From Oscillatoriophycideae cyanobacterium NC_groundwater_1537_Pr4_S-0.65um_50_18 (lineage in GTDB: Bacteria > Cyanobacteriota > Cyanobacteriia > Elainellales > Elainellaceae), in contig JACQYI010000036.1 of NCBI GenBank assembly GCA_016208305.1, positions 62,001 through 126,000 on the forward strand: a DNA stretch of 64,000 nucleotides, in the 5' to 3' direction. The position numbers were made by a program, and so were the translations under genes. Positions 19,498 to 62,989 of this stretch are shown here, piece after piece. How positions within the stretch are numbered: position 1 is the stretch's first letter; every line of letters starts with the position of its first letter. The notes under the pieces are model-generated. The model was not told the DNA's origin, searched no databases, and saw only the letters and a program-made list of their open reading frames with translations.

Positions 19498-19882
19498 GGG
19501 GCTGTAACGGTTTCGACGTTTTGGCGAACGCCACTTCGTGATGCAGGTCGAGAGTGAGTCTCCTCTCGCAAATCAAAGGCTCAAAACACGTACATGCGAA
19601 CAACATCGTACCTTTCGCTCGTAAAGCAGCAGCTGTTGCCTAACAAAAACCTCTCATAGGTTCGAGCATCTACGGTTTGACTCCGTTAAGGACTGTAGAT
19701 AAACCCCCAACGGATGCTCCAACTAGCTGCCTCTAGTCAATAGTTGGCTAAGACTTTACTAGAGAATCCCATCGTCCGGGATAAGGGACGATTCCCGCTT
19801 CGAGGATTAGAGAAGCTAAACCTGTGAATGATCGGGGTGCTAATACCCATGGCGGACACGGGTTCGACTCCCGTCAGCTCCA
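19498..19882 (+). ncRNA. ssrA: tmRNA (one-piece)
   Basis: tmRNA rescues stalled ribosomes and tags the incomplete proteins for proteolysis. The 5' end GGGGCTGTAACGGTTTCGAC and the 3' end with GGTTCGACTCCCGTCAGCTC plus encoded CCA form the tRNA-like domain; GGGGCTG pairs with CAGCTCC. The tag frame is at 19596-19643 and reads ANNIVPFARKAAAVA followed by TAA. The gene is not permuted. The resume region and the stretch between the tag and the 3' end (pseudoknots) have the usual cyanobacterial length, about 385 nucleotides in total. Confidence 0.97.
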
Positions 19883-19911
19883 TTGCTTATTAGACCACTG
19901 AACGTTATGTG

Positions 19912-45032: not shown

Positions 45033-45587
45033 CTAAGCGCCGAGCTGATGGCCGCAGCTAGAACAGAAGCGATCGGTTGGCTGGACGGCAACTCCACATT
45101 GACTACAGAACTGACGAGTACTGGGAGGCGCTGGCGGAGCAGTAGGAATTCCCATCTGCATGGACATATTGCCCATTTTCATTTCCATAGGCTTGAAATT
45201 CATTTGCATGTTGCCCATGTCCATTGGCTGCATCGGCTCCATCGGCTTCATGGGTTCCATTGGCTTCATTGGCTCTGAGGTCGGCGAATTAACCTGCTGC
45301 ATTTGCATCTGCTGGGCGTTGCTAAGGGCAGGGGCACTGCTGAGCACGTTCACGCTACTGCCTTGAACTTGGATAAAGTGTTCGCCTTGGGCAGTTCGCA
45401 ATTTCACAACGATACTTCCTGCCATGCGAAACACCTCAGGTGCAGCAATCCAGCTTCCCGTTTGGATACCTTGGGAGGCTTGCTGCTGCTGTCCGGCACT
45501 GCTGCTAGCCAGCGTTATCAGGGTTTGGTTTCCGGCGTTATCGAGAAAAAGACGCTGCCCGTTGCCTAAATCACATCCGTACACCAT
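45033..45587 (-). CDS. Zinc-ribbon protein with methionine-rich linker
   Basis: A 184-residue soluble protein in three parts: a beta-rich N-terminal domain (1-90, MVYGCDLGNGQRLFLDNAG), a Met/Pro repeat region (about 105-160; EPMKPMEPMKPMEPMQPM then MGNMQMNFKPMEMKMGN), and a C-terminal zinc ribbon with CSQCG and CSSCG, four cysteines in two pairs. The Met-rich stretch could bind copper or act as a flexible linker. Family unknown. Confidence 0.7.
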   Translation of the reverse strand: MVYGCDLGNGQRLFLDNAGNQTLITLASSSAGQQQQASQGIQTGSWIAAPEVFRMAGSIVVKLRTAQGEHFIQVQGSSVNVLSSAPALSNAQQMQMQQVNSPTSEPMKPMEPMKPMEPMQPMDMGNMQMNFKPMEMKMGNMSMQMGIPTAPPAPPSTRQFCSQCGVAVQPTDRFCSSCGHQLGA

Positions 45588-45915: not shown

Positions 45916-46539
45916 ATGGAGCCTAAACTCACCGAAACTCAGCTTGCCCAGGTGATTGCCGAGATCACCCAGCTATCGCAGCAGCGTGAGGCAGAGTTGT
46001 CTCCGCAGCAGGTGAGAGAAATTTTGCAAGAGTTGAATTTGCCTGACGACCTGCTAGAAGATGCGCTGGTGCAGATACGTCGCCGGGAAACGTTGGCACA
46101 ACGGCAGAAGCGCAACCGCTGGGGGGTGATGGCAACAACAGCGATCGCCATTGTTGCCATCAGTGCGGGCATTCTATTTTGGCAAAACCAGGAGCAGCAA
46201 ACCGCTCAAGTGGTAGCAGGGCAAGATCAAATTGCGCTGTCTGAAACAAGTGATGATAATCTGACTCAAGTGAGCCGTCAGCTTAATCCCCGTGTTTACT
46301 ATCGGGTAACGTTAGAAAAGGCACCGATCGATCGCCAGCTTTCGCTGCAATGTGACTGGATTGATCCCAGTGGTCAAGTCGTGCATCAAGGGCGGTATCA
46401 AACCCGCTCGATCAGCACGCCGATTTGGAATACGTATTGCTTTTATGATCTGGGTGCGGCTGCCCCTCAGGGAAATTGGGAAGTGCGGCTGCGGCTGGAT
46501 GAGCGTGTCCTCAGCACCCAAAATTTCACGGTGCAATAG
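45916..46539 (+). CDS. Membrane-anchored protein, unknown function
   Basis: A 207-residue protein with a cytoplasmic helical domain (1-65; LSPQQVREILQELNLPDDLLEDALVQIRR), one membrane helix (about 69-88, WGVMATTAIAIVAISAGILFW), and an exported beta-rich domain (about 115-207; VYYRVTLEKAPI, LQCDWIDPSGQVVHQGRY, NWEVRLRLD). The exported part looks like a beta-sandwich domain. Similar proteins are known only as cyanobacterial hypotheticals. A large hairpin follows the stop codon. Confidence 0.72.
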   Translation: MEPKLTETQLAQVIAEITQLSQQREAELSPQQVREILQELNLPDDLLEDALVQIRRRETLAQRQKRNRWGVMATTAIAIVAISAGILFWQNQEQQTAQVVAGQDQIALSETSDDNLTQVSRQLNPRVYYRVTLEKAPIDRQLSLQCDWIDPSGQVVHQGRYQTRSISTPIWNTYCFYDLGAAAPQGNWEVRLRLDERVLSTQNFTVQ

Positions 46540-46596: not shown

Positions 46597-46625
46597 CATG
46601 GATAGGGTGTAGGAGGTGGATGGAG

Positions 46626-48368
46626 ATGGGTGCGAAACCCTCGCAGTTTCTGGGCTACTGGGGTTGGGGCAATCATACAGAAACGCTGCGGAGTTTGGTG
46701 CCTGACTACCTGATCCGGCAGGGCGAGTCGGGCAGCTCAATCGCGTGGGCGATCGCGTCTGCGACAGAACTGACTGCCGATCGCGTCACGCTGAATGCCT
46801 GTGGGCGATCGCAGCTCACCGATTCTGCGGGAGATGCTTGGGCTTGTGTAGAAACGCAAGGGTTGCGGCTGGGGCGCGATCCGTTTGGGCGAGTGCCGCT
46901 GTACTGGATGCAGCTTGGAGAAACAATTTGGTTTGCTACCCGTCTGCAACTGCTGCGACCTCTCATTGCAACACCCCACATTAATCCGATCGCCCTGCAT
47001 GGTTTGGCCTGTTTTTCCTATGTGCCGACTCCTTTAACGCCGATCGAACAAGTGGCAGCCGTGGCAGCAGGCAGTGAGATCGCCTGGTCGATGGCAGATG
47101 CTCAGACGCTGTCACCGCCTCAGACGCGATCGCTTAATCCCCCGTGGCGGGAAGCCCCGCAACTGCTGCGCCATGAGGATCAGGCCGTCGAGCAATTGCA
47201 GGCGCTGCTGCGGCAGGCGATCGAGCGACAGGTGGCAGATTTGCCGCTCGATGAACCCGTTGGCGTGCTGCTGTCAGGCGGCATTGATTCCTCATTGGTG
47301 ACGGCGCTGTTGGTTGAGGCAGGCTTACAGGTGCGAGCTTATGCGCTCGATTTTGGGGTTGAGGGCTATTCCGAATTGGCCTATGCTCAGCAGGTGGCAG
47401 ATTTGTTTCAAATTCCGCTGATCCAGGTTGCTGCAACGGGCGCTCGCCTGCTTTCAGTGCTTCGCGCAACGGCTCAGGCGCTCGATTTGCCCTATGGAGA
47501 TGGCACAACGGCTCCGTTATTCTTACTCAAGCAAGCGGCAGCGCAGGATGTGCGCGTGGTGTTTAATGGCGAAAATGGCGATCAGCTCTTTGCCGGATGG
47601 ACAAACAAACCTGTGATTGCGGGTGGCGTATATCGTCCAGAGCATCCTGTGGCAGTAGAAACTTTTGAGCAACAGTATTTGCGAACGTTTCAGCGTTTTT
47701 TGGGCTATGAGTCGCAAGTTTTTTCCGCCGATCTGCTAGCTCATATTCAAGCTCATGATTTGACGCTTTACCTGCAAGACGCCCTTGATGCCACGGCCTG
47801 CCCTTCTCTGCTGGCGCGGCTGCGGCGGGCTTCGCTCATGCTCAAAGGGGCGCAAAACATCCAGCCCAGAGCCACAGCCTTGGGATTTGCCCATGATTTA
47901 TGGGTGCGATCGCCCTTCTGCGATCCTGACCTCACCACCTGGACTTTTCAGATGCCCGGAGAGCTGATGCTGCAAGGTGCCTGTGAGAAATACATTCTGA
48001 AACGAGCGGCTGAACGCTGGCTGCCGCCTGAAATTGTTTGGCGCGAAAAGCGCGGTATGGGTGTGCCGCTTAAGGTTTGGTACTACCGTGAATTTTGGGG
48101 TGCAATCGGGCAGTGGCTCAACCCCAAGGTGCTGCGGTCAGAAAATCGCTGGCAGCCGCATTTGGCAGATGCGATGTTGTCTGGCAAACTCGGAGTGGCT
48201 ATGCGCGATCGCTATATTGGCAATAATCTCTGGCTGCTGCTGATGTGGCAAGCTTGGCGGACAGAGGTGCTAGGCGAGATTCCGGCTTCGCGATCGCTCG
48301 ATCATGTCTTTTGGCTGCCGCCTGCGATTGGGCAGCGCATCTGGAACTATCGCAAGAGGCTGCAATGA
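46626..48368 (+). CDS. Asparagine-synthetase-like protein 1
   Basis: A member of the asparagine synthetase superfamily (about 580 residues). The N-terminal Ntn-hydrolase domain (to about 190) has no cysteine at position 2, so it cannot release ammonia from glutamine; LGRDPFGRVPLYW is still recognisable. The PP-loop SGGIDSS (about residues 217-223) binds ATP, and NGENGDQLFAGW and EKRGMGVPLKVWYYREFW mark the synthetase half. The usual DE of the synthetase motif is DQ here. The product is unknown; beta-lactam and carbapenam synthetases are relatives that also lost the cysteine. AGGAGG at 46611 favours ATG 46626 over 46620. Its TGA overlaps the next start (ATGA). Confidence 0.85.
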   Translation: MGAKPSQFLGYWGWGNHTETLRSLVPDYLIRQGESGSSIAWAIASATELTADRVTLNACGRSQLTDSAGDAWACVETQGLRLGRDPFGRVPLYWMQLGETIWFATRLQLLRPLIATPHINPIALHGLACFSYVPTPLTPIEQVAAVAAGSEIAWSMADAQTLSPPQTRSLNPPWREAPQLLRHEDQAVEQLQALLRQAIERQVADLPLDEPVGVLLSGGIDSSLVTALLVEAGLQVRAYALDFGVEGYSELAYAQQVADLFQIPLIQVAATGARLLSVLRATAQALDLPYGDGTTAPLFLLKQAAAQDVRVVFNGENGDQLFAGWTNKPVIAGGVYRPEHPVAVETFEQQYLRTFQRFLGYESQVFSADLLAHIQAHDLTLYLQDALDATACPSLLARLRRASLMLKGAQNIQPRATALGFAHDLWVRSPFCDPDLTTWTFQMPGELMLQGACEKYILKRAAERWLPPEIVWREKRGMGVPLKVWYYREFWGAIGQWLNPKVLRSENRWQPHLADAMLSGKLGVAMRDRYIGNNLWLLLMWQAWRTEVLGEIPASRSLDHVFWLPPAIGQRIWNYRKRLQ

Positions 48369-49630
48369 CTCAATCTGAAACTGCTAAGCCTGGAACTGCT
48401 AAGCCTGGAACTGCTAAACCTAGCGAGACTCAAGCTAAACCTGCGGAAATTATTCATGCGCCTCCCTTCTCGCAGGCGCTTATGCAGGAGTTGCTGTCTG
48501 CTTACGGTTCGCCCCTGTATGTGTATCAGGGCGATCGCCTCTGCCAAACGCTTGACCACATTACGCGATCGGTGGACTATCCGCACACGCAGTTTCATTT
48601 TGCCAGCGTCACCAATGGCAATGTTGCGCTGTTGCAAATCATCCGGCAGAAGGGCTGGGGGCTGCATGCCAATACGCCAGGAGATGTGTTTCTGGGGTTG
48701 CAAGCCGGATTTTTGCCAACTCAAATCGTTTACAGCGGCAGCAACCTCAGCCGAGAGGATCTAGAGCAGCTCATCCGCTGGGATATCCATCGCTTTAACT
48801 TGGATAGCCTGTCGCAGCTGCGGCTGTTTGGCGACTGTTCGGTAGCACGATCGCCCACGCCCGCCCTGGGGCTGCGCCTCAATGCTCCGGAACTAACGGG
48901 AGAAAGCCGCATTGGCATCCGTCCTGCCGAATTTGAGGAAGCCTGCGCCATTGCCCAGCAGTATGGGCTGACCCTTACAGGACTGCACTTTTACCGGGGT
49001 ACCGGAACCAATGCCACAGCAGCCTTCACGCAGGTGATTGATCAGGTGATTGCGATCGCTCAGCGCCTACCCCACTGGCAAATGCTCGATTTTGGCGGGG
49101 GCTTTGGCTATCCCTATCGATCGGGAGCAGCGTTTGACTGGCCTGAGTTTGGGGCAGCCATGCGGCAAAAGCTAGCGGCTCTGTCGCGCCCTATAGAGCT
49201 AGTGATTGAACCCGGGCGCGCGGTGATTGCCGGATGTGGGGTCTTGCTGGCTCAAGTGGTGGCTGTGAAATGGCAGGGCGATCGCCAAATTGTCGGGGTC
49301 GATACAACAGTGGCCAATTTATCGGTGCCTGCGGTGCATGGAGGCTACCGAGCCATCACGACTTGGGTTTCTGGGTCGTCGAGACATCCCACAGATATTT
49401 GCGGCAACACGACCTATTCACGAGATTATTTAGGGCGAGGCTGTGAGTTGCCGATGCTCAAAGTTGGCGATGTCGTTGCCATCTTAGACAGCGGAGCCTA
49501 TGGCTATGCGATGTCGTCCCATTTTCTGCATCGGCCTCGTCCGGCTGAGGTGCTGGTTGCAGCCAACGACCACCGATTAATTCGGGAGCGAGAAGATTAT
49601 TCCATCTTGTTAAACGGACAAAAATTTTAG
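48365..49630 (+). CDS. Decarboxylase-like PLP-fold protein lacking the lysine
   Basis: A 421-residue protein of fold-type III (ornithine/diaminopimelate decarboxylase, alanine racemase) family. The start is ATG 48365 in an ATGA overlap with the upstream stop. The first 30 residues contain a TAKPG repeat. In the usual A-x-K-A-N motif the protein reads ASVTNGN (80-86), so the Schiff-base lysine is V82. The phosphate-binding GGGFG and EPGR are kept, but the CxSxD active-site cysteine is T (CGNTTYSRD), and the family H-I/V-G-S reads YRGT. It probably does not act as a normal decarboxylase. Translational coupling links it to the asparagine-synthetase-like gene. Confidence 0.8.
   Translation: MTQSETAKPGTAKPGTAKPSETQAKPAEIIHAPPFSQALMQELLSAYGSPLYVYQGDRLCQTLDHITRSVDYPHTQFHFASVTNGNVALLQIIRQKGWGLHANTPGDVFLGLQAGFLPTQIVYSGSNLSREDLEQLIRWDIHRFNLDSLSQLRLFGDCSVARSPTPALGLRLNAPELTGESRIGIRPAEFEEACAIAQQYGLTLTGLHFYRGTGTNATAAFTQVIDQVIAIAQRLPHWQMLDFGGGFGYPYRSGAAFDWPEFGAAMRQKLAALSRPIELVIEPGRAVIAGCGVLLAQVVAVKWQGDRQIVGVDTTVANLSVPAVHGGYRAITTWVSGSSRHPTDICGNTTYSRDYLGRGCELPMLKVGDVVAILDSGAYGYAMSSHFLHRPRPAEVLVAANDHRLIREREDYSILLNGQKF
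48381..48425. repeat. 15-bp in-frame tandem repeat
   Basis: CTGCTAAGCCTGGAA is repeated three times (the third is imperfect), encoding the TAKPG repeats at the N-terminus of the PLP-fold protein. Confidence 0.85.
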
Positions 49631-49653
49631 AGCGAACATCGGGAGCAATGGGA

Positions 49654-50964
49654 ATGAAATGTGTTGCATGTGGAACTGATAATGTTTTGAAAGATCGCAC
49701 CCGAAATTCAGGTCGCTGCAAGCGGTGTAACCATACGTTTGTCTTTGAGCCTGCTGGGATGTCTGATAAAAAATTGGCCTTCACCGATCCGTTTTTCCAG
49801 AAGGCGATCGACGATATTTCCAACCATAATCTTCTCTCTTTTACCCCAAAACAATTCTTGTACTTTATCGACAGGCGGCTCAAGGCTAGGGCTTCTAAAG
49901 GCAGATGGAGTTGGGTAATTTTCTATTTATTCCTTAACTTTGTGGTGGCGGCCTTTTTTGCCCAAGATATTGCCTATCTAGTTGGTTCTTCTATTTACAA
50001 TCTGCTTTGGATTGCGGCGTTCTTTAACGGCAGCAAGTCTCTGCAACTAGGGACGAGAGGGAGGAAAGACAACGCTAATAAGCTCCAGATTTTAGGGGTG
50101 CTCATCTTAGTCATCGGCATAATCCATAGCCTGTCAAAGAACCTGCTCATCGGGTATGGGGTGACGACTGTATTGGGGCTATCTGCTATCTGGCTCGGTA
50201 TTTTACAAAAGCGTCGTCACGGAAGCATCGGGGAAGTCTTTCTGGTCGAAGCTGCGCTGAGTGAGGAGTGGCTGCGACGCTGGCAGGCAGTGAACGGGAG
50301 ATTAGACAAACTGCTGCCTCAGCCTCGCCAAAACACGCTGCCCATCAACCCTGATGCAGCCAATGTTGATCCTGAGGTGAGCGCCTACAGTTTCGATCGC
50401 GCCATTGTTTGTGAGAGTGATGCGATCGCGCAATTCCTGATTGCCAACAACGTTCATTTTGAAAATAACTGCGCGATTCTCAGCATCAACGGCTATCCTC
50501 AAAGCATTTTTGATACCGTGATGGAAATGCTGCGGCGCAATGCCGATCTCAAAGTTTATGTGCTGCATGATGCCAGCCCTGCGGGGGTTAGTCTGGTGCA
50601 TCAACTGCGATCGAGTCCCGATTGGTTTGCCAATCAACCCGCAACAATTTTTGATTTGGGTCTTTCTCCTCGACAAATCTTGGCAGGTCGGGATTTCTTT
50701 CTGCAAAAGTCTGACGCGATCGCCCGTTCGGCAGGTCAGCTACCGGATGCTGTGCGGCAAAGCCTCACGGATCAGGAGCAGGCGTGGCTGGATGCAGGCT
50801 ATTTTGTAGAACTAGAATCGTTTGCGCCACAGCGGCTGTTGCGTGTGGTCAACTATGGCTTGGCTCAGAGTGGCGATCCGCAGAGCAATGACGGTTTAAT
50901 CGTGATGGATGATGGCATGAGCTATGGAGGCGGTTATGTGTTTGCCTCCGATAGTTTCGGCTAG
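49654..50964 (+). CDS. Zinc-ribbon membrane protein with Toprim-like domain
   Basis: A 436-residue protein. The N-terminus is a zinc ribbon (CVACG..CKRC, residues 3-25), followed by a linker, two to four hydrophobic segments (about 85-180), and a soluble C-terminal region (240-430). The segment RAIVCESDAIAQFLI, then VYVLHDASPAGVSLVHQL, recalls a Toprim fold (DxD-PxG pattern), as in topoisomerases and OLD-type nucleases, but this is a weak resemblance. GGGAG eight bases before ATG 49654 supports that start. It follows the PLP-fold gene by 23 bases and its end overlaps the convergent asparagine-synthetase-like gene by four bases. Confidence 0.7.
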   Translation: MKCVACGTDNVLKDRTRNSGRCKRCNHTFVFEPAGMSDKKLAFTDPFFQKAIDDISNHNLLSFTPKQFLYFIDRRLKARASKGRWSWVIFYLFLNFVVAAFFAQDIAYLVGSSIYNLLWIAAFFNGSKSLQLGTRGRKDNANKLQILGVLILVIGIIHSLSKNLLIGYGVTTVLGLSAIWLGILQKRRHGSIGEVFLVEAALSEEWLRRWQAVNGRLDKLLPQPRQNTLPINPDAANVDPEVSAYSFDRAIVCESDAIAQFLIANNVHFENNCAILSINGYPQSIFDTVMEMLRRNADLKVYVLHDASPAGVSLVHQLRSSPDWFANQPATIFDLGLSPRQILAGRDFFLQKSDAIARSAGQLPDAVRQSLTDQEQAWLDAGYFVELESFAPQRLLRVVNYGLAQSGDPQSNDGLIVMDDGMSYGGGYVFASDSFG

Positions 50965-52706
50965 CGGCGATTTTCCTGAAGCCAGATTTCTAACGTCACC
51001 AGCAGCCACAGCTTTAGGCCGTAGCGAGGAAAAACCTCGCCGCGATAGTTGAGCCAGTCGCGAATGAGTGTCTGATTCAGGTAGGGTGCAATGGCGGCTC
51101 TTGGATTAAGCAAGAGCGATCGCGCCTGCTGCCGCCAATGGGTCAAAAACCACTGCTGCATCGACATCACCATGCCGCTTTTGGGACGGTTCACAATCAC
51201 ATCGGGCAAGAGGTCAGCCACAGCCGCTTTGAGGACGGCTTTTTCTTGCGCCCCTGACAGCTTGTATGCGGGTGGAATTTGCAAACTCAGCGCCACCATA
51301 CGTGGATCAAACAGGGGCGATCGCCCTTCTAGTCCGGCAGCGGCAGTGAGATTGTTCACCTTCGTCAAAATGTAGTCCGCGCCTTTAAACTCAATGTTGA
51401 GCAGCATCAGCCGATTCAAAAATGTGGTGTCCTGCTGCTGCAATCCGGCGGCAAAGACAGAAGGCACCTCTTTGACGACCTCCCAGAGTTCAGGTTTGAG
51501 TAAGCGCGGCAAATCGACAAAACACTTCTGAAAAGAAGTCAGATAGGCGGATGCCGGATCGGCTGTGCCCTGAATTGAGCCATCCTGAATTGAGCCATAT
51601 AGACTGTTGAGCAACATCGGCTTGTTTTTCGGGCCTGCAAAGCAGGGATCGCCCCCTTCACCATTGAGCGCCACCCCCACTATTTGCTTGGCCGATCGCG
51701 CCAGCAGCAAATTTGGCACCGTCAGTCCTTCCCCTACTGGATCATCCAGAGCCGCAAGCGTTTCGGGTAAAAGCTGCCAAATCTGCTGCGGCGAAACTTC
51801 TAGGACATGATGCTGCGTGCCGCAATGTGCCGCAACAAGGTTGGCAAATTCAAGCTCGCTAGGATACTGAGCGCCAAAGTGCATTGAAAACGTGTGTACG
51901 GGGTGATCATGCAGCCGCGATGCGATCGCCGTTACACAGCTAGAGTCAATGCCGCCCGAAAGGTAGGCTCCTACAGGTTCGCCTACGGGCAGCGCTTGCT
52001 GCACCAGCTGCTCTAAGAGAACGCGCACCTGCTGAGCATGCCAATTCATTGAGCGATCGGCATGGCTAATGTGCTCTTGGGGCTGCCAGTAGCGCTGCGG
52101 CTGACCGTCTGGAAAGCCGAGGCTGGTGCCCGGTCGCAACTCTCGCACCCCCTGCCAAAGCGTTTGCGCTCCGGGCACAAATGCACAGCTGAGATAGTCA
52201 CGTAGGGCGATCGGGTCAAGATCTTGGGCGTGATAGGAATTGAGCGATCGCAGCCGAGGTGCAGCCCAGCCTGCCGCACTGGTTTTGTTCAGGACATAGT
52301 AGAGCGTTTTGGCTCCGACCGGATCGCGCCCCAAACACAAGGTTTGCTGCTCTTGATCCCACACCGCTAGCGCAAACGATCCGGTCAGCAAGTTCAGCGT
52401 TTGGGTGCCCCACTGCTCCCAAATCTGCCCCACGATCGCCAGATCGCTCAGGCTTTCGGCTTTCTCTACGTAATCCTTGATGTGCTTCAGCAACAGGGAG
52501 CGATCGAAACAGCAGTCACCCACCAGCACGAATCGCTGACTGGGGCTAAAGGTGGGCTGCGCGCCAATCATGGCAAAATTAGACGTTGCCCAAGTTGCCC
52601 GACGCAAGGGCGGTGCGGTCACATTAGCCGATTGAGCTGCGGCTCCCCAGGCTATGACCCAATGGGGATGAATGGCTCTCTGAGAGATAGGGCGCAAGGT
52701 TAGCAC
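50961..52706 (-). CDS. Asparagine-synthetase-like protein 2
   Basis: A 581-residue asparagine-synthetase-superfamily protein. It has a GTG start, no cysteine 2, and an N-terminal Ntn-like domain with LLTGSFALAVWDQE and LGRDPVGAKTLYY. The PP-loop is SGGIDSS (250-256), and the synthetase motif is NGEGGDPCFAGPKNKP (DE replaced by DP). Residues FAGPKNKPMLL resemble WTNKPVIAG of protein 1, so the two are paralogues of one subfamily. The arrangement is convergent: this gene faces the zinc-ribbon gene. Residues 374-385 contain a 5-residue duplication (GSIQD/GSIQG). Confidence 0.85.
   Translation of the reverse strand: MLTLRPISQRAIHPHWVIAWGAAAQSANVTAPPLRRATWATSNFAMIGAQPTFSPSQRFVLVGDCCFDRSLLLKHIKDYVEKAESLSDLAIVGQIWEQWGTQTLNLLTGSFALAVWDQEQQTLCLGRDPVGAKTLYYVLNKTSAAGWAAPRLRSLNSYHAQDLDPIALRDYLSCAFVPGAQTLWQGVRELRPGTSLGFPDGQPQRYWQPQEHISHADRSMNWHAQQVRVLLEQLVQQALPVGEPVGAYLSGGIDSSCVTAIASRLHDHPVHTFSMHFGAQYPSELEFANLVAAHCGTQHHVLEVSPQQIWQLLPETLAALDDPVGEGLTVPNLLLARSAKQIVGVALNGEGGDPCFAGPKNKPMLLNSLYGSIQDGSIQGTADPASAYLTSFQKCFVDLPRLLKPELWEVVKEVPSVFAAGLQQQDTTFLNRLMLLNIEFKGADYILTKVNNLTAAAGLEGRSPLFDPRMVALSLQIPPAYKLSGAQEKAVLKAAVADLLPDVIVNRPKSGMVMSMQQWFLTHWRQQARSLLLNPRAAIAPYLNQTLIRDWLNYRGEVFPRYGLKLWLLVTLEIWLQENRR
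51569..51598. repeat. 15-bp in-frame duplication
   Basis: CCTGAATTGAGCCAT occurs twice in tandem inside the second asparagine-synthetase-like gene, duplicating five residues. Confidence 0.8.
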
Positions 52707-60176: not shown

Positions 60177-60238
60177 AATAAAAATCCCTGACCAGAAGCC
60201 AGGGATTTATCAGGGTGCATCTACCATTCCCTTATACC
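60177..60238 (-). terminator. Duplicated terminator-like unit, copy 1
   Basis: AAATCCCTG and CAGGGATTT form a hairpin which, read on the minus strand, ends in GGGATTTTTATT. The unit continues with CAGGGTGCATCTACC to TTATACC. The same 62-bp unit recurs 119 bases away. On the minus strand it lies downstream of the DUF3598 gene. Confidence 0.7.
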
Positions 60239-60295: not shown

Positions 60296-60357
60296 AATAA
60301 AAATCCCCGACCGGAAGCCAGGGATTTATCAGGGTGCATCTACCACTTCTTTATACC
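60296..60357 (-). terminator. Duplicated terminator-like unit, copy 2
   Basis: The copy nearer the DUF3598 stop. Stem AAATCCC(C/T)G/CAGGGATTT with minus-strand T-rich end, followed by the same conserved GGTGCATCTACC segment. The unit probably terminates the DUF3598 transcript; the conserved flank beyond the hairpin is unexplained. Confidence 0.7.
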
Positions 60358-60437: not shown

Positions 60438-61292
60438 TCAAGGAGATTTTTGTTCTGTAACCAGCGTTAGGCTGCTCCATCCGCCTTGAGCATCATAACT
60501 ACGAATCATGCGCTTCCGCAGGTTTGGGGCGATCAGCCACCCGGCCTCTAAAAAGAAAGGCTGCCTTCTAGGAATCTGGACGGGGGTATTGGAAGACGCA
60601 CCCCCTGGCAAAAGCAACACCTGAATGGGGTACTTGCCCTGTTCAAACCGTAGAATAGAGCCTTCAATGGCTGCTACAGAGTTGAAATTCATCTCAGGTG
60701 TCGTCAAGTGCTGCACCAATCGATCGCCCTCCACCTGAACTGATAGCCTTGTGTCATAGCGATGGGGCGATCGCCAGTCTGGGTAGAGGGTAACAGCCTC
60801 CCCCTGCCAATTTCCCACCAGTTGCTCCACTCTCAAAAGCGCTGCATCAAACGGTGTTTCGGAGGGCATTTCTGCCTGCTGACGCTGTTCTCGGATTAGC
60901 GTCAGGCTAGATAAAGCGCTGTTTTTATCAAACATTTGCACCAAACGCAGACGACGATCGCCCTGAATGAAGCCCAGTTCAGCGCCAAATTCAGAAAACG
61001 GCGCAGATTGCATCGATCCTTGGGAGAAATCTCCAGCCTTGAACAGTAAAATGCTGCGACCCAGAGTGCTGTACTCCAAAACCTTCTGATAGTTCACTTC
61101 GCCTGTCTGAGGCGAGAACTGCTCGATCGTCTGCCGTACAGTTTGCTTTTCGTTGATGCCTTCTAAGGTCACGCGACTAAGAATATCGTCTTTTAATCGC
61201 CCCTCTGGTGAAAAGTAACTAAAGGAGCCTTGCCATGCTCCTAAGTTGCAGAGCAAGCTGTCCCATTGCGAAACTGGATTGGAGTCAGGCAT
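60438..61292 (-). CDS. DUF3598 family protein
   Basis: A 284-residue cytosolic protein matching DUF3598, a lipocalin-like beta-barrel family found mainly in cyanobacteria. Both barrel halves are visible: WDSLLCNLGAWQGSFSYFSPEGRL, VLEYSTLGRSILLFKAGDFSQGS, and the second half from VEQLVGNWQGEAVTLYPDW to GGWSSLTLVTEQ. The W-G-x repeats at the start of each half are the key feature. A relation to pigment or isoprenoid binding has been proposed for related lipocalins; the role here is unknown. Confidence 0.85.
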   Translation of the reverse strand: MPDSNPVSQWDSLLCNLGAWQGSFSYFSPEGRLKDDILSRVTLEGINEKQTVRQTIEQFSPQTGEVNYQKVLEYSTLGRSILLFKAGDFSQGSMQSAPFSEFGAELGFIQGDRRLRLVQMFDKNSALSSLTLIREQRQQAEMPSETPFDAALLRVEQLVGNWQGEAVTLYPDWRSPHRYDTRLSVQVEGDRLVQHLTTPEMNFNSVAAIEGSILRFEQGKYPIQVLLLPGGASSNTPVQIPRRQPFFLEAGWLIAPNLRKRMIRSYDAQGGWSSLTLVTEQKSP

Positions 61293-61663
61293 GATTGCTT
61301 CTCTGTATGGCGTTGAGTCTGTAAGCTTTGAGCAAGATGGGCGATCGGTTGAAGGATAAGTGGATTAGGGAAGGCATCGCAAAATCAGAGTAGGTTTCCG
61401 GAATCCATCGCGATCGAACTGTAGTAATCTGCATATCTCAAAATTTGCAGAGTTTCCATACAGTTTAAAGCTCCTTTATCGAAATATCTTTTTCTTTAAT
61501 TCTCGATGAAGTTTTCTCCTTCAGTCCAGTATGCTTGAGTTATTCCTGTAGCATTAGCGGCAGAAGAGGCTGGCAAAGTTCAGCCACAAGCCGTAGGGCT
61601 TTAGCATGTCCAGGCAGTTGACATTAGCCATTTCATCAGGGTTCTCTCAAAAAAGCTTTGCTT
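61293..61663. other. Divergent intergenic region
   Basis: No gene. It should contain the promoters of the DUF3598 gene (minus) and the RlpA-like gene (plus). A stop codon at 61625 lies in the RlpA frame, so no upstream signal-peptide extension is possible in that frame. AT-rich around 61440-61510. Confidence 0.4.
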
Positions 61664-62989
61664 ATGATCAGCGTCGTAGATATACCGTCTGACTACAGCA
61701 ACTCAACCTATGCGTTAGTCGCCTTTGCAGAGTCTTCTAGCGATATCCTTGACTCTGGATTACCCCAGGAATTGCAGACCCAAAAGCAGCAAACAGCCCC
61801 CGATTTATTGGCTGAACCGCTGCTTGAGCCTTCCGGTGCAGAACCTGACGGCATAGTTTCAAACACAGCTTCAATCCATCAGGTGGCAGCCTCTGGTCTT
61901 GAGGCAACCCCGCCTTCAGAATCCTCTAGCGCTAATGGCGCTGCACCCTCTGATTCTGGTTCTGTAGGCACAAAAGCTTCGCCCACAGAACCCAAGGCTT
62001 CTTCTAGCCCTAACCCTCTAACTTCAGTTCCTAGCCCATCTTTGCAGTTTGTCCAAGCAATTTCTAGCTGGTCTTCTGGCATTAGCGATGCCTTGAAGTT
62101 TGATGCGCCTTTGATCGCAGTTGTTCAGATCCAGAATCCCCGATCGCTCATTTCCGTTACAGCAGAGGCGATCGATTCTAAGACTATGACCAGCGTTAAA
62201 GGGGGTGGAACCTTAAAGATCCATCCTGATCATCAGCGTCAGGACTGTCTGGCGGCTGACGAAATGATGCCCAAGCCAGCCTTTGGCACTGTGTATCAGG
62301 TTCAGGTAAAAGGGCAAACCATTGCCAACTTGCCTAGCCAGACTCAGGCGAAAGCACTGGCTCAGCAGATAGAGCAAACCCTACAGAGTTCTGGATTTGA
62401 CCCAGAAGCCTTACAGGCAGCGATCGAAAATCTTGTTCCTCTGGGCAAAGTGGGTGAAACAACTTTGTTTCAAATTGACTCAGCGCTAGCCGCTCAGTTC
62501 GATCGCAACCCAGAGCTGCTGGCCATTTCTTGGATCAACAATTTGCGTTTGGCTTTAGAAGTTTCTCCCATCCCGATCGCAGAAGCACAGATTCAAATGC
62601 ATGCCCTAACGTTGACCCCAAAACAGCTAAAGGGAAACGCCTCTTGGTATGACCCTCTATTTGCTGGTAGCCTCACGGCTACGGGCGAAACTTTTGACCC
62701 TGTTAAGATGACGGCAGCGCACCCAACGTTGCCCTTCGATACCTACCTTAAAGTCACTAATCAGCAGACTCAAGATTCAGTCATTGTCCGCATCAACGAT
62801 CGCGGGCCTTATTTGCAAGATCGCTCACTCGATCTTTCGAATGAGGCGGCTCGTTGCTTAAATAGCGAGATGTCTGGCGTTGTGCCTTACGAGGCCGTAG
62901 TGCTAGAAAACCCTCAAGCTCAGGCACAGGCAGCAGAGGCTCCATCAACCGCAGAAGATTCTCTCTCTGAAGAATCTCATACCTATTAA
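61664..62989 (+). CDS. RlpA-like double-psi beta-barrel protein
   Basis: RlpA-type proteins act on peptidoglycan strands without stem peptides. In this 441-residue protein the DPBB domain lies at the C-terminus (about 320-420): GNASWYDPLFAGSLTATGETFDP, MTAAHPTLPFDTYLKVTN, SVIVRINDRGPY, RSLDLSNEAA. The N-terminal 140 residues are Ser/Ala/Pro-rich and disordered, followed by an alpha/beta region (VYQVQVKGQTIANLP) shared with cyanobacterial RlpA proteins. No signal peptide is visible from ATG 61664 (MISVVDIPSD), which is odd for an envelope protein. TTG at 61658 is an alternative. Confidence 0.85.
   Translation: MISVVDIPSDYSNSTYALVAFAESSSDILDSGLPQELQTQKQQTAPDLLAEPLLEPSGAEPDGIVSNTASIHQVAASGLEATPPSESSSANGAAPSDSGSVGTKASPTEPKASSSPNPLTSVPSPSLQFVQAISSWSSGISDALKFDAPLIAVVQIQNPRSLISVTAEAIDSKTMTSVKGGGTLKIHPDHQRQDCLAADEMMPKPAFGTVYQVQVKGQTIANLPSQTQAKALAQQIEQTLQSSGFDPEALQAAIENLVPLGKVGETTLFQIDSALAAQFDRNPELLAISWINNLRLALEVSPIPIAEAQIQMHALTLTPKQLKGNASWYDPLFAGSLTATGETFDPVKMTAAHPTLPFDTYLKVTNQQTQDSVIVRINDRGPYLQDRSLDLSNEAARCLNSEMSGVVPYEAVVLENPQAQAQAAEAPSTAEDSLSEESHTY

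Follow-up and report, generated by a model that had tools for sequence, protein, structure and literature searches.

What could be the common task of two asparagine-synthetase homologues, a decarboxylase-like protein and a membrane protein that are encoded side by side in a cyanobacterium? The question is raised by a locus of the Oscillatoriophycideae cyanobacterium NC_groundwater_1537_Pr4_S-0.65um_50_18, which lies in positions 62,001 to 126,000 of contig JACQYI010000036.1 (assembly GCA_016208305.1); this whole stretch of 64,000 nucleotides is called the window below. An earlier note on this DNA had described four of the genes, encoding two asparagine-synthetase-fold proteins (A1 and A2), a lysine-less decarboxylase-fold protein (PLP) and a zinc-ribbon membrane protein (ZNR), and had regarded them as a candidate for an undescribed system. 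It missed a fifth gene, TMP, as well as a Toprim domain and a fixed C-terminal tail of ZNR. The five genes occur together in genome after genome, whether adjacent or not, and the best explanation is that they form one membrane-associated system, which is larger than the four-gene set noticed first (Table 1).

The same 388 cyanobacterial genomes were searched for PLP, ZNR, A2 and TMP, and 53 of them for A1. PLP is present in 48 genomes, with four distant matches set aside, and each of these 48 also carries ZNR, which was found in 49 genomes (one match is a 46-residue fragment). A2 and TMP occur in 52 and 54 genomes, respectively, 47 of which are PLP-positive in either case. Of the 53 genomes examined for A1, the 48 with PLP gave 47 positives; the other five, which have no PLP but hold A2 or a ZNR relic, gave none. 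All five genes are present in 46 of the 48 PLP-positive genomes; A2 and TMP are missing from genome G330, and A1 from G325. Internal stops occur in the A2 matches of the PLP-positive genomes G226, G279 and G286 as well as in A1 of G279. Fisher tests yielded 7e-61 for PLP and ZNR and 1e-53 for PLP and A2, values that are overstated because the genomes were taken as independent. The argument for co-occurrence rests on the A2 genes that are far from PLP and on a distribution that reaches 11 family-level cyanobacterial groups rather than on these p-values. In the 47 PLP-positive genomes with A2, the gene lies within 15 kb of PLP in 26 and farther away or separate in 21, namely on the same contig at a distance of 0.56-4.4 Mb in seven and on another contig in 14 (drafts, in which linkage is unproven). 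PLP was found in all 11 groups, ten of which hold the complete set of five genes, and the best 80 of 176 PLP relatives with names are all cyanobacterial. No PLP was found in the three further genomes from the genus of the window, two of which are only 68-72% complete.

The neighbourhood comparison that the earlier note had proposed gave a similar picture, since the genes are conserved together and mostly in the same order in cyanobacterial genomes. In 47 loci (L038-L084), PLP is adjacent to A1 in 43 and to ZNR in 45, and A2 lies within the examined stretch in 25; the contig of L065 begins at PLP. Two genomes have TMP and A1 paired at a site apart from PLP. In Gloeothece verrucosa PCC 7822, the gene cluster is also plasmid-borne, with a PEP-CTERM gene directly upstream, and its products are annotated in order as hypothetical protein, asparagine synthetase B family protein, decarboxylase, hypothetical protein and asparagine synthase-related protein. 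When open reading frames (ORFs) of at least 80 amino acids from 128 loci, a redundant set in which collections overlap, were clustered, the TMP family was found in 106 loci and the next commonest neighbour family in 32. An AlphaFold2 (AF2) model of TMP (predicted local distance difference test score, pLDDT, 76.7) has the Ig-like protein 3n6y as its best fold match. Around the A2 genes away from PLP, no neighbour was shared beyond small lineage groups and no tail gene adjoined A2; this search covered the 21 PLP-distant places, six A2 regions from the five PLP-negative genomes, two ZNR genes that stand alone and the relic of G326. In six of the seven genomes with TMP and no PLP, the examined surroundings of TMP contained no A1, PLP, ZNR or A2. 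The TMP genes of L261-L266 (broken in L266), which have none of the other four nearby, may be remnants or may have a separate function.

Both A1 and A2 belong to the Asn_synthase family (PF00733) and, as had been claimed, are devoid of the glutaminase Cys. The residue counts given here and below refer to distinct near-full-length sequences (101 of A1, 66 of A2 and 113 of PLP), with positions placed by motif. For A1, 97 sequences have I, L, V or M directly before the invariant Gly of the aligned N-terminal motif and four have a gap there, and a 20-row alignment of A2 contains no Cys in this motif. The PP-loop is kept as SGG[IL]DS in both proteins, and the synthetase motif has DQ in A1 and DP in A2 where DE is expected, just as the earlier note had read them. 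Compared with E. coli AsnB (1ct9), A1 carries Q322 and W327 at the positions of E352 and Y357, which form the Glu/Tyr dyad of the DExFxGY motif (Q/W in 101/101), and A2 carries P354 and P359 (P/P in 66/66). By contrast, the Ser and Asp of the PP-loop and the equivalents of E348 and D351 are present in every A1 and A2, the K449 equivalent in 100/101 A1 and 65/66 A2, and the substrate Arg in 100/101 A1. In a tree, A1 and A2 each form one clade (100/100 each), but the branches that meet are long (3.09 for A1 and 1.49 for A2). A1 is the more diverged protein overall, and A2 is the one with more loss at the acceptor site. Both retain the ATP side of the fold, and neither has the glutaminase Cys or the Glu/Tyr dyad. 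No other full-length match to PF00733 was found in the window's genome, only two short ones.

The third protein, PLP, has the fold of the LysA decarboxylases (2p3e, 3n2b), including the phosphate loop GGGxG and the EPGR and GAYG motifs. However, the Schiff-base lysine is replaced by Thr83 and the stacking His by Tyr210 in all 113 sequences, and the catalytic Cys-Glu of the C-terminal motif by Thr350-Tyr351. The protein was therefore rightly described as lysine-less, and its gene is coupled to A1 by an ATGA overlap (48365-48368). Moreover, H101 and D107 (113/113 each) are found at sites where relatives have Asp and Glu. The residues for the cofactor phosphate and the pyridine nitrogen are retained; E282, R285, G244, G246 and T213 are present in 113/113 and Y379 in 112/113. 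The motif blocks HANTPGD, HFYRGTGTN and CGNTTYSRDYL are nearly letter-perfect, which indicates that the positions of replacement are not relaxed. An internal aldimine of the usual kind cannot form in PLP, and the retained phosphate site suggests that a phosphate ligand may be held non-covalently. Because the replacements are fixed in 101/101 A1, 66/66 A2 and 113/113 PLP sequences, they lie far beyond chance.

ZNR, a protein of 438 amino acids, was correctly recognised as a zinc-ribbon membrane protein, with a C4 ribbon and four long hydrophobic helices. In its AF2 model, which was built from 28 sequences (mean pLDDT 83.1), these elements are followed by a Toprim-like domain (residues 250-407) and a tail (residues 411-438) with pLDDT < 50. 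The domain matches PF21180 of the topoisomerase-VI-A/Spo11 type with 29.8 bits (cut-off 24.1). The best structural relatives of the model are TopoVI-A chains (Foldseek 4.2e-4; Z 11.5 to 1d3y_A, 4.2 A over 172 residues), and JetD (7til_A) is matched with a Z of 7.2. The column of the Toprim Glu is occupied by D in 107, Q in six and E in five of 122 sequences, the window copy having E, and the second Asp of the DxD motif, as placed by motif alignment, is retained in only two of the 122.

The tail is the most constant exposed carboxylate-bearing element of the set. FG is the end of 126 of 137 distinct ZNR ORFs; nine of the other 11 are short fragments, lie at contig ends or are N-masked, and two are long divergent second copies. 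One of the latter (L167, 3169-4467) ends with ESLV, and the other (L088, 12526-15033) is followed by YVFVSDSFG in a different frame, with no stop. Among 121 FG-ending ZNR ORFs > 300 amino acids, a set chosen by that ending, 107 have S at position -3 and 118 have D, E or Q at position -4, which gives the consensus -[DEQ][STN]FG within a net-acidic stretch. The codons for F and G vary, and the stop codons are TAA in 56, TAG in 35 and TGA in 30 cases; the constraint on the tail therefore looks to be at the protein level. For comparison, the neighbourhoods hold another 1,122 distinct ORFs with 80 or more amino acids, four of which end with FG and none with [STN]FG. Two or more ZNR ORFs > 300 amino acids are present in 14 of 118 loci. 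In Okeania (L165, 17725-18344; L120, 14817-15174), tandem repeats of about 131 bp comprise the 3' end of ZNR and a spacer; several copies still encode ...SDSFG-stop, and the repeats look like a local DNA duplication. A 106-amino-acid ORF of L138 (12629-12946) consists of only the zinc-ribbon end of ZNR and a ...VESFG tail.

We tentatively prefer the reading that A1 and A2 carry out an ATP-dependent modification of the ZNR tail within one membrane-associated system, which we regard as possible and not yet as probable. A1, possibly together with A2, would bind ATP and adenylate a carboxylate; ATP binding and possible adenylation are suggested because the ATP side is kept, the glutaminase is lost and the acceptor site is rebuilt. 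The likeliest carboxylate would be provided by the ZNR tail, either by the C-terminal Gly or by the acidic residue in position -4. To this carboxylate would be joined an amine that is held or presented by PLP and is not the ammonia released from glutamine, and TMP and the ZNR helices would hold the reaction at the membrane. The earlier interpretation is supported in part; its idea of ATP-dependent amide or lactam formation with an altered PLP-fold partner is at most possible, as both synthetase homologues retain the residues of the ATP side but neither retains the Glu/Tyr dyad.

This loss is the first of several points that weigh against a modification of the tail. A precedent that speaks for such a modification is the recently described asparagine-synthetase-like enzyme PesC, which adenylates and amidates the C-terminus of a peptide (PMC13060819); in PesC, however, Y368F abolishes and E363A lowers the activity. 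Glu363 and Tyr368 of PesC are taken to be the equivalents of E352 and Y357 of AsnB, equated by the five-residue spacing, so that a Tyr essential in PesC would be gone from A1 and A2. PesC, as described there, shares the asparagine-synthetase fold and the retained ATP side with A1 and A2, but it uses glutamine and Tyr368, whereas A1 and A2 have neither the Cys nor the dyad. Moreover, its substrate is a short precursor peptide, while ZNR is a 438-amino-acid membrane protein and a candidate substrate only. The substrate Arg is missing from 12 of 66 A2 sequences (present in 54), nothing shows that A1 or A2 contacts the ZNR tail, and a tail this constant might just as well serve for docking. A2 is also found in five PLP-negative genomes, where it is interrupted by in-frame stops in two, partial in one and open in two, and TMP in seven, including one fragment and one copy with a stop. 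Finally, no convincing further tail-bearing gene was found in a pattern search in which 40 of 62 non-ZNR matches were inspected.

That search used a DNA pattern, an aromatic residue at -7 combined with [DEQH]xFG-stop, which other tail forms such as that of ZNR in G380 escape. In 25 of the 48 PLP-positive genomes, it yielded 83 matches (31 in the reversed control), 21 of which were assigned to ZNR by position; the remaining 62 are twice as many as their own control gave. In 25 PLP-negative genomes, 44 matches were obtained (40 in the reversed control). The 40 inspected matches, most of them picked because FG was preceded by S or T and followed by a genuine stop codon, mostly end very short frames, and only three of them belong to an ORF of at least 80 amino acids. 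A general tag is therefore unlikely, and the idea that the ZNR tail is a shared tag was rejected.

Nearly as likely as a modification of the tail, and just as tentative, is a complex of repurposed enzymes, most parts of which would not catalyse any reaction. A1 and A2 would sense ATP, PLP would sense a phosphorylated metabolite, for instance a form of vitamin B6 or an amino-acid adduct, ZNR and TMP would signal at the membrane, and the tail would dock. The replacement of the catalytic residues of three enzyme folds (A1 and A2, PLP, and the ZNR Toprim domain) in all or nearly all sequences is what such a complex would predict, and a nearly fixed tail that is predicted to be disordered suits it as well. 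However, the retention of the PP-loop, E348 and K449 in A1 and A2 seems to exceed what ATP binding needs, and the pocket of PLP is rebuilt with fixed polar residues instead of being relaxed.

The five-gene set was also compared with known systems. A1, A2, PLP and ZNR all score below the cut-offs of the NCBIfam families listed for them. For A1 and A2, the scores are 157.9 and 237.3 with TIGR01536 (asparagine synthetase, cut-off 267.1), 51.9 and 162 with NF033535 (lasso peptide isopeptide cyclase, cut-off 525), 146.2 and 237.4 with TIGR03108 (XrtA amidotransferase, cut-off 816.9) and 126.9 and 212 with TIGR03104 (NAGGN amidotransferase, cut-off 570.1). PLP scores 237.1 with TIGR01048 (diaminopimelate decarboxylase, cut-off 297.9) and 108.5 with TIGR03099 (exosortase-associated decarboxylase, cut-off 478.45). 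The pair TIGR03108/TIGR03099 likewise combines an asparagine-synthetase-fold and a PLP-decarboxylase-fold protein in one XrtA/PEP-CTERM system, and the Gloeothece copy of the set has a PEP-CTERM gene as its neighbour, but A1, A2 and PLP are far below both cut-offs. An ordinary asparagine synthetase, which the earlier note had named as an outcome that would speak against its proposal, as well as lysA, the exosortase pair and the lasso cyclase are ruled out by scores and residues. The ZNR domain shares the Toprim fold with TopoVI-A, Spo11 and JetD; it differs from them in that the Toprim Glu is mostly Asp, the second DxD Asp is lost and hydrophobic helices stand in front, and no topoisomerase N-terminal domain was found in a Pfam scan of ZNR. 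Of the families tested by score or residue, none has all of its defining features matched by these proteins, the beta-lactam and carbapenam synthetases having been compared by profile match only. No description of the five-gene set was found among the titles listed for the literature searched, outside of which most subscription papers lie, in keeping with the claim of an undescribed system. The system is considered new as a set, although all of its recognised folds are known.

Beta-lactam synthetase and the carbapenam synthetase CarA have no glutaminase Cys and form the lactams of antibiotic clusters. The profiles of A1 and A2 match the fold of both (1jgt and 1q15; profile comparison only), a likeness that points to a small-molecule pathway along the lines of the earlier note, in which A1 and A2 would convert a small carboxylate to an amide or lactam through attack of an internal or external amine, and PLP would be a new enzyme that depends on pyridoxal or pyridoxamine phosphate or on neither. 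Although the remodelled acceptor site would fit a new substrate, we consider such a pathway rather unlikely. No neighbour family beyond the five genes occurs in more than 32 of the 128 loci, and the ten next commonest families are represented by a signalling kinase, a glyoxalase-like protein, DUF7219, a short-chain dehydrogenase, an LD-carboxypeptidase, a subtilase, a HAD protein, an ABC ATPase, a TPR-CHAT protein and one protein without match, whose unrelated functions suggest no shared pathway. Furthermore, a membrane protein with a Toprim domain and a zinc ribbon would be an odd member of it. Still less probable is a ligation of protein tails unrelated to ubiquitin and Pup, in which A1 and A2 would activate the C-terminal Gly of ZNR and PLP would carry the amine at its converted cofactor pocket.

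A nucleic-acid-directed or defence system, in which the Toprim domain and zinc ribbon of ZNR would act on DNA or RNA and A1 and A2 would make or sense a nucleotide signal, can be regarded as very improbable, since the TopoVI-A/Spo11/JetD type of the domain, the patchy distribution, the one plasmid copy and the loci with two or more ZNR ORFs are outweighed by degenerate Toprim metal residues, by the lack of any match to a defence family in PADLOC-DB 2.0.0 beyond a weak QueC match to A1 and by the lack of PLP relatives in viral contigs. A phage origin was rejected, as no relative of PLP was found in viral contigs. In PHROGs, A1 and A2 match one synthetase-length family of unknown function; weak matches connect A1 with two more families, one of them QueC-like, and A2 with the QueC-like one.

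Table 1. Coordinates of the five genes and their key elements in the window
Feature	Position	Strand	Basis
TMP, 207 amino acids: N-terminal helices, one hydrophobic segment, C-terminal beta-sandwich (Ig-like)	45916-46539	+	conserved family and AF2 model
A1, asparagine-synthetase fold without glutaminase Cys	46620-48368	+	PF00733, E 5.4e-54
A1 PP-loop SGGIDS, residues 219-224	47274-47291	+	S219 and D223 in 101/101 distinct A1
A1 Q322-W327 at the Glu/Tyr dyad site (E. coli AsnB E352/Y357)	47583-47600	+	alignment to 1ct9
PLP, lysine-less, diaminopimelate-decarboxylase fold	48365-49630	+	PF02784, PF00278; profile match to 2p3e, 1.1e-62
PLP T83 codon at the Schiff-base lysine site	48611-48613	+	alignment to 2p3e and 3n2b
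ZNR: zinc ribbon, four hydrophobic helices, Toprim-like domain, predicted disordered tail	49648-50964	+	AF2 model, pLDDT 83.1
ZNR Toprim-like domain, residues 250-407, DxD metal motif replaced	50395-50868	+	PF21180
ZNR tail, residues 411-438, ending D-S-F-G	50878-50961	+	pLDDT < 50
A2, asparagine-synthetase fold without glutaminase Cys, convergent	50961-52706	-	PF00733, E 2.4e-71
A2 PP-loop SGGIDS, residues 250-255	51942-51959	-	S250 and D254 in 66/66 distinct A2
A2 P354-P359 at the Glu/Tyr dyad site	51630-51647	-	P/P in 66/66

The A1 frame has its first ATG at 46620, 6 nt 5' of the start given in the earlier note (46626), which is likewise an ATG. PLP and ZNR are separated by 17 bases, and ZNR and A2 overlap tail-to-tail by 4 bases. 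A scan for promoters and terminators gave no dependable signal. Directly upstream of TMP, a 184-amino-acid protein (45033-45587, - strand) combines a Met/Pro-rich repeat stretch (MEPMKPMEPM...) with a C-terminal zinc ribbon. Elsewhere in the window, two copies of the nitrogen-stress RNA NsiR1 are present on the - strand (60178-60226 and 60296-60345; 47.4 bits each, gathering score 39), with ORFs of at least 150 amino acids close by at 60438-61292 (-) and 61658-62989 (+), and a tmRNA gene (19498-19885, +) encodes the tag ANNIVPFARKAAAVA.

In each recognised enzyme fold of the set, the textbook catalytic residues have been swapped for other, nearly fixed ones. The five genes thus stand either for new chemistry on three old folds or for a sensory machine that has evolved from enzymes. 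In the genomes that carry them, labels like 'decarboxylase' or 'asparagine synthase-related protein' may be misleading.

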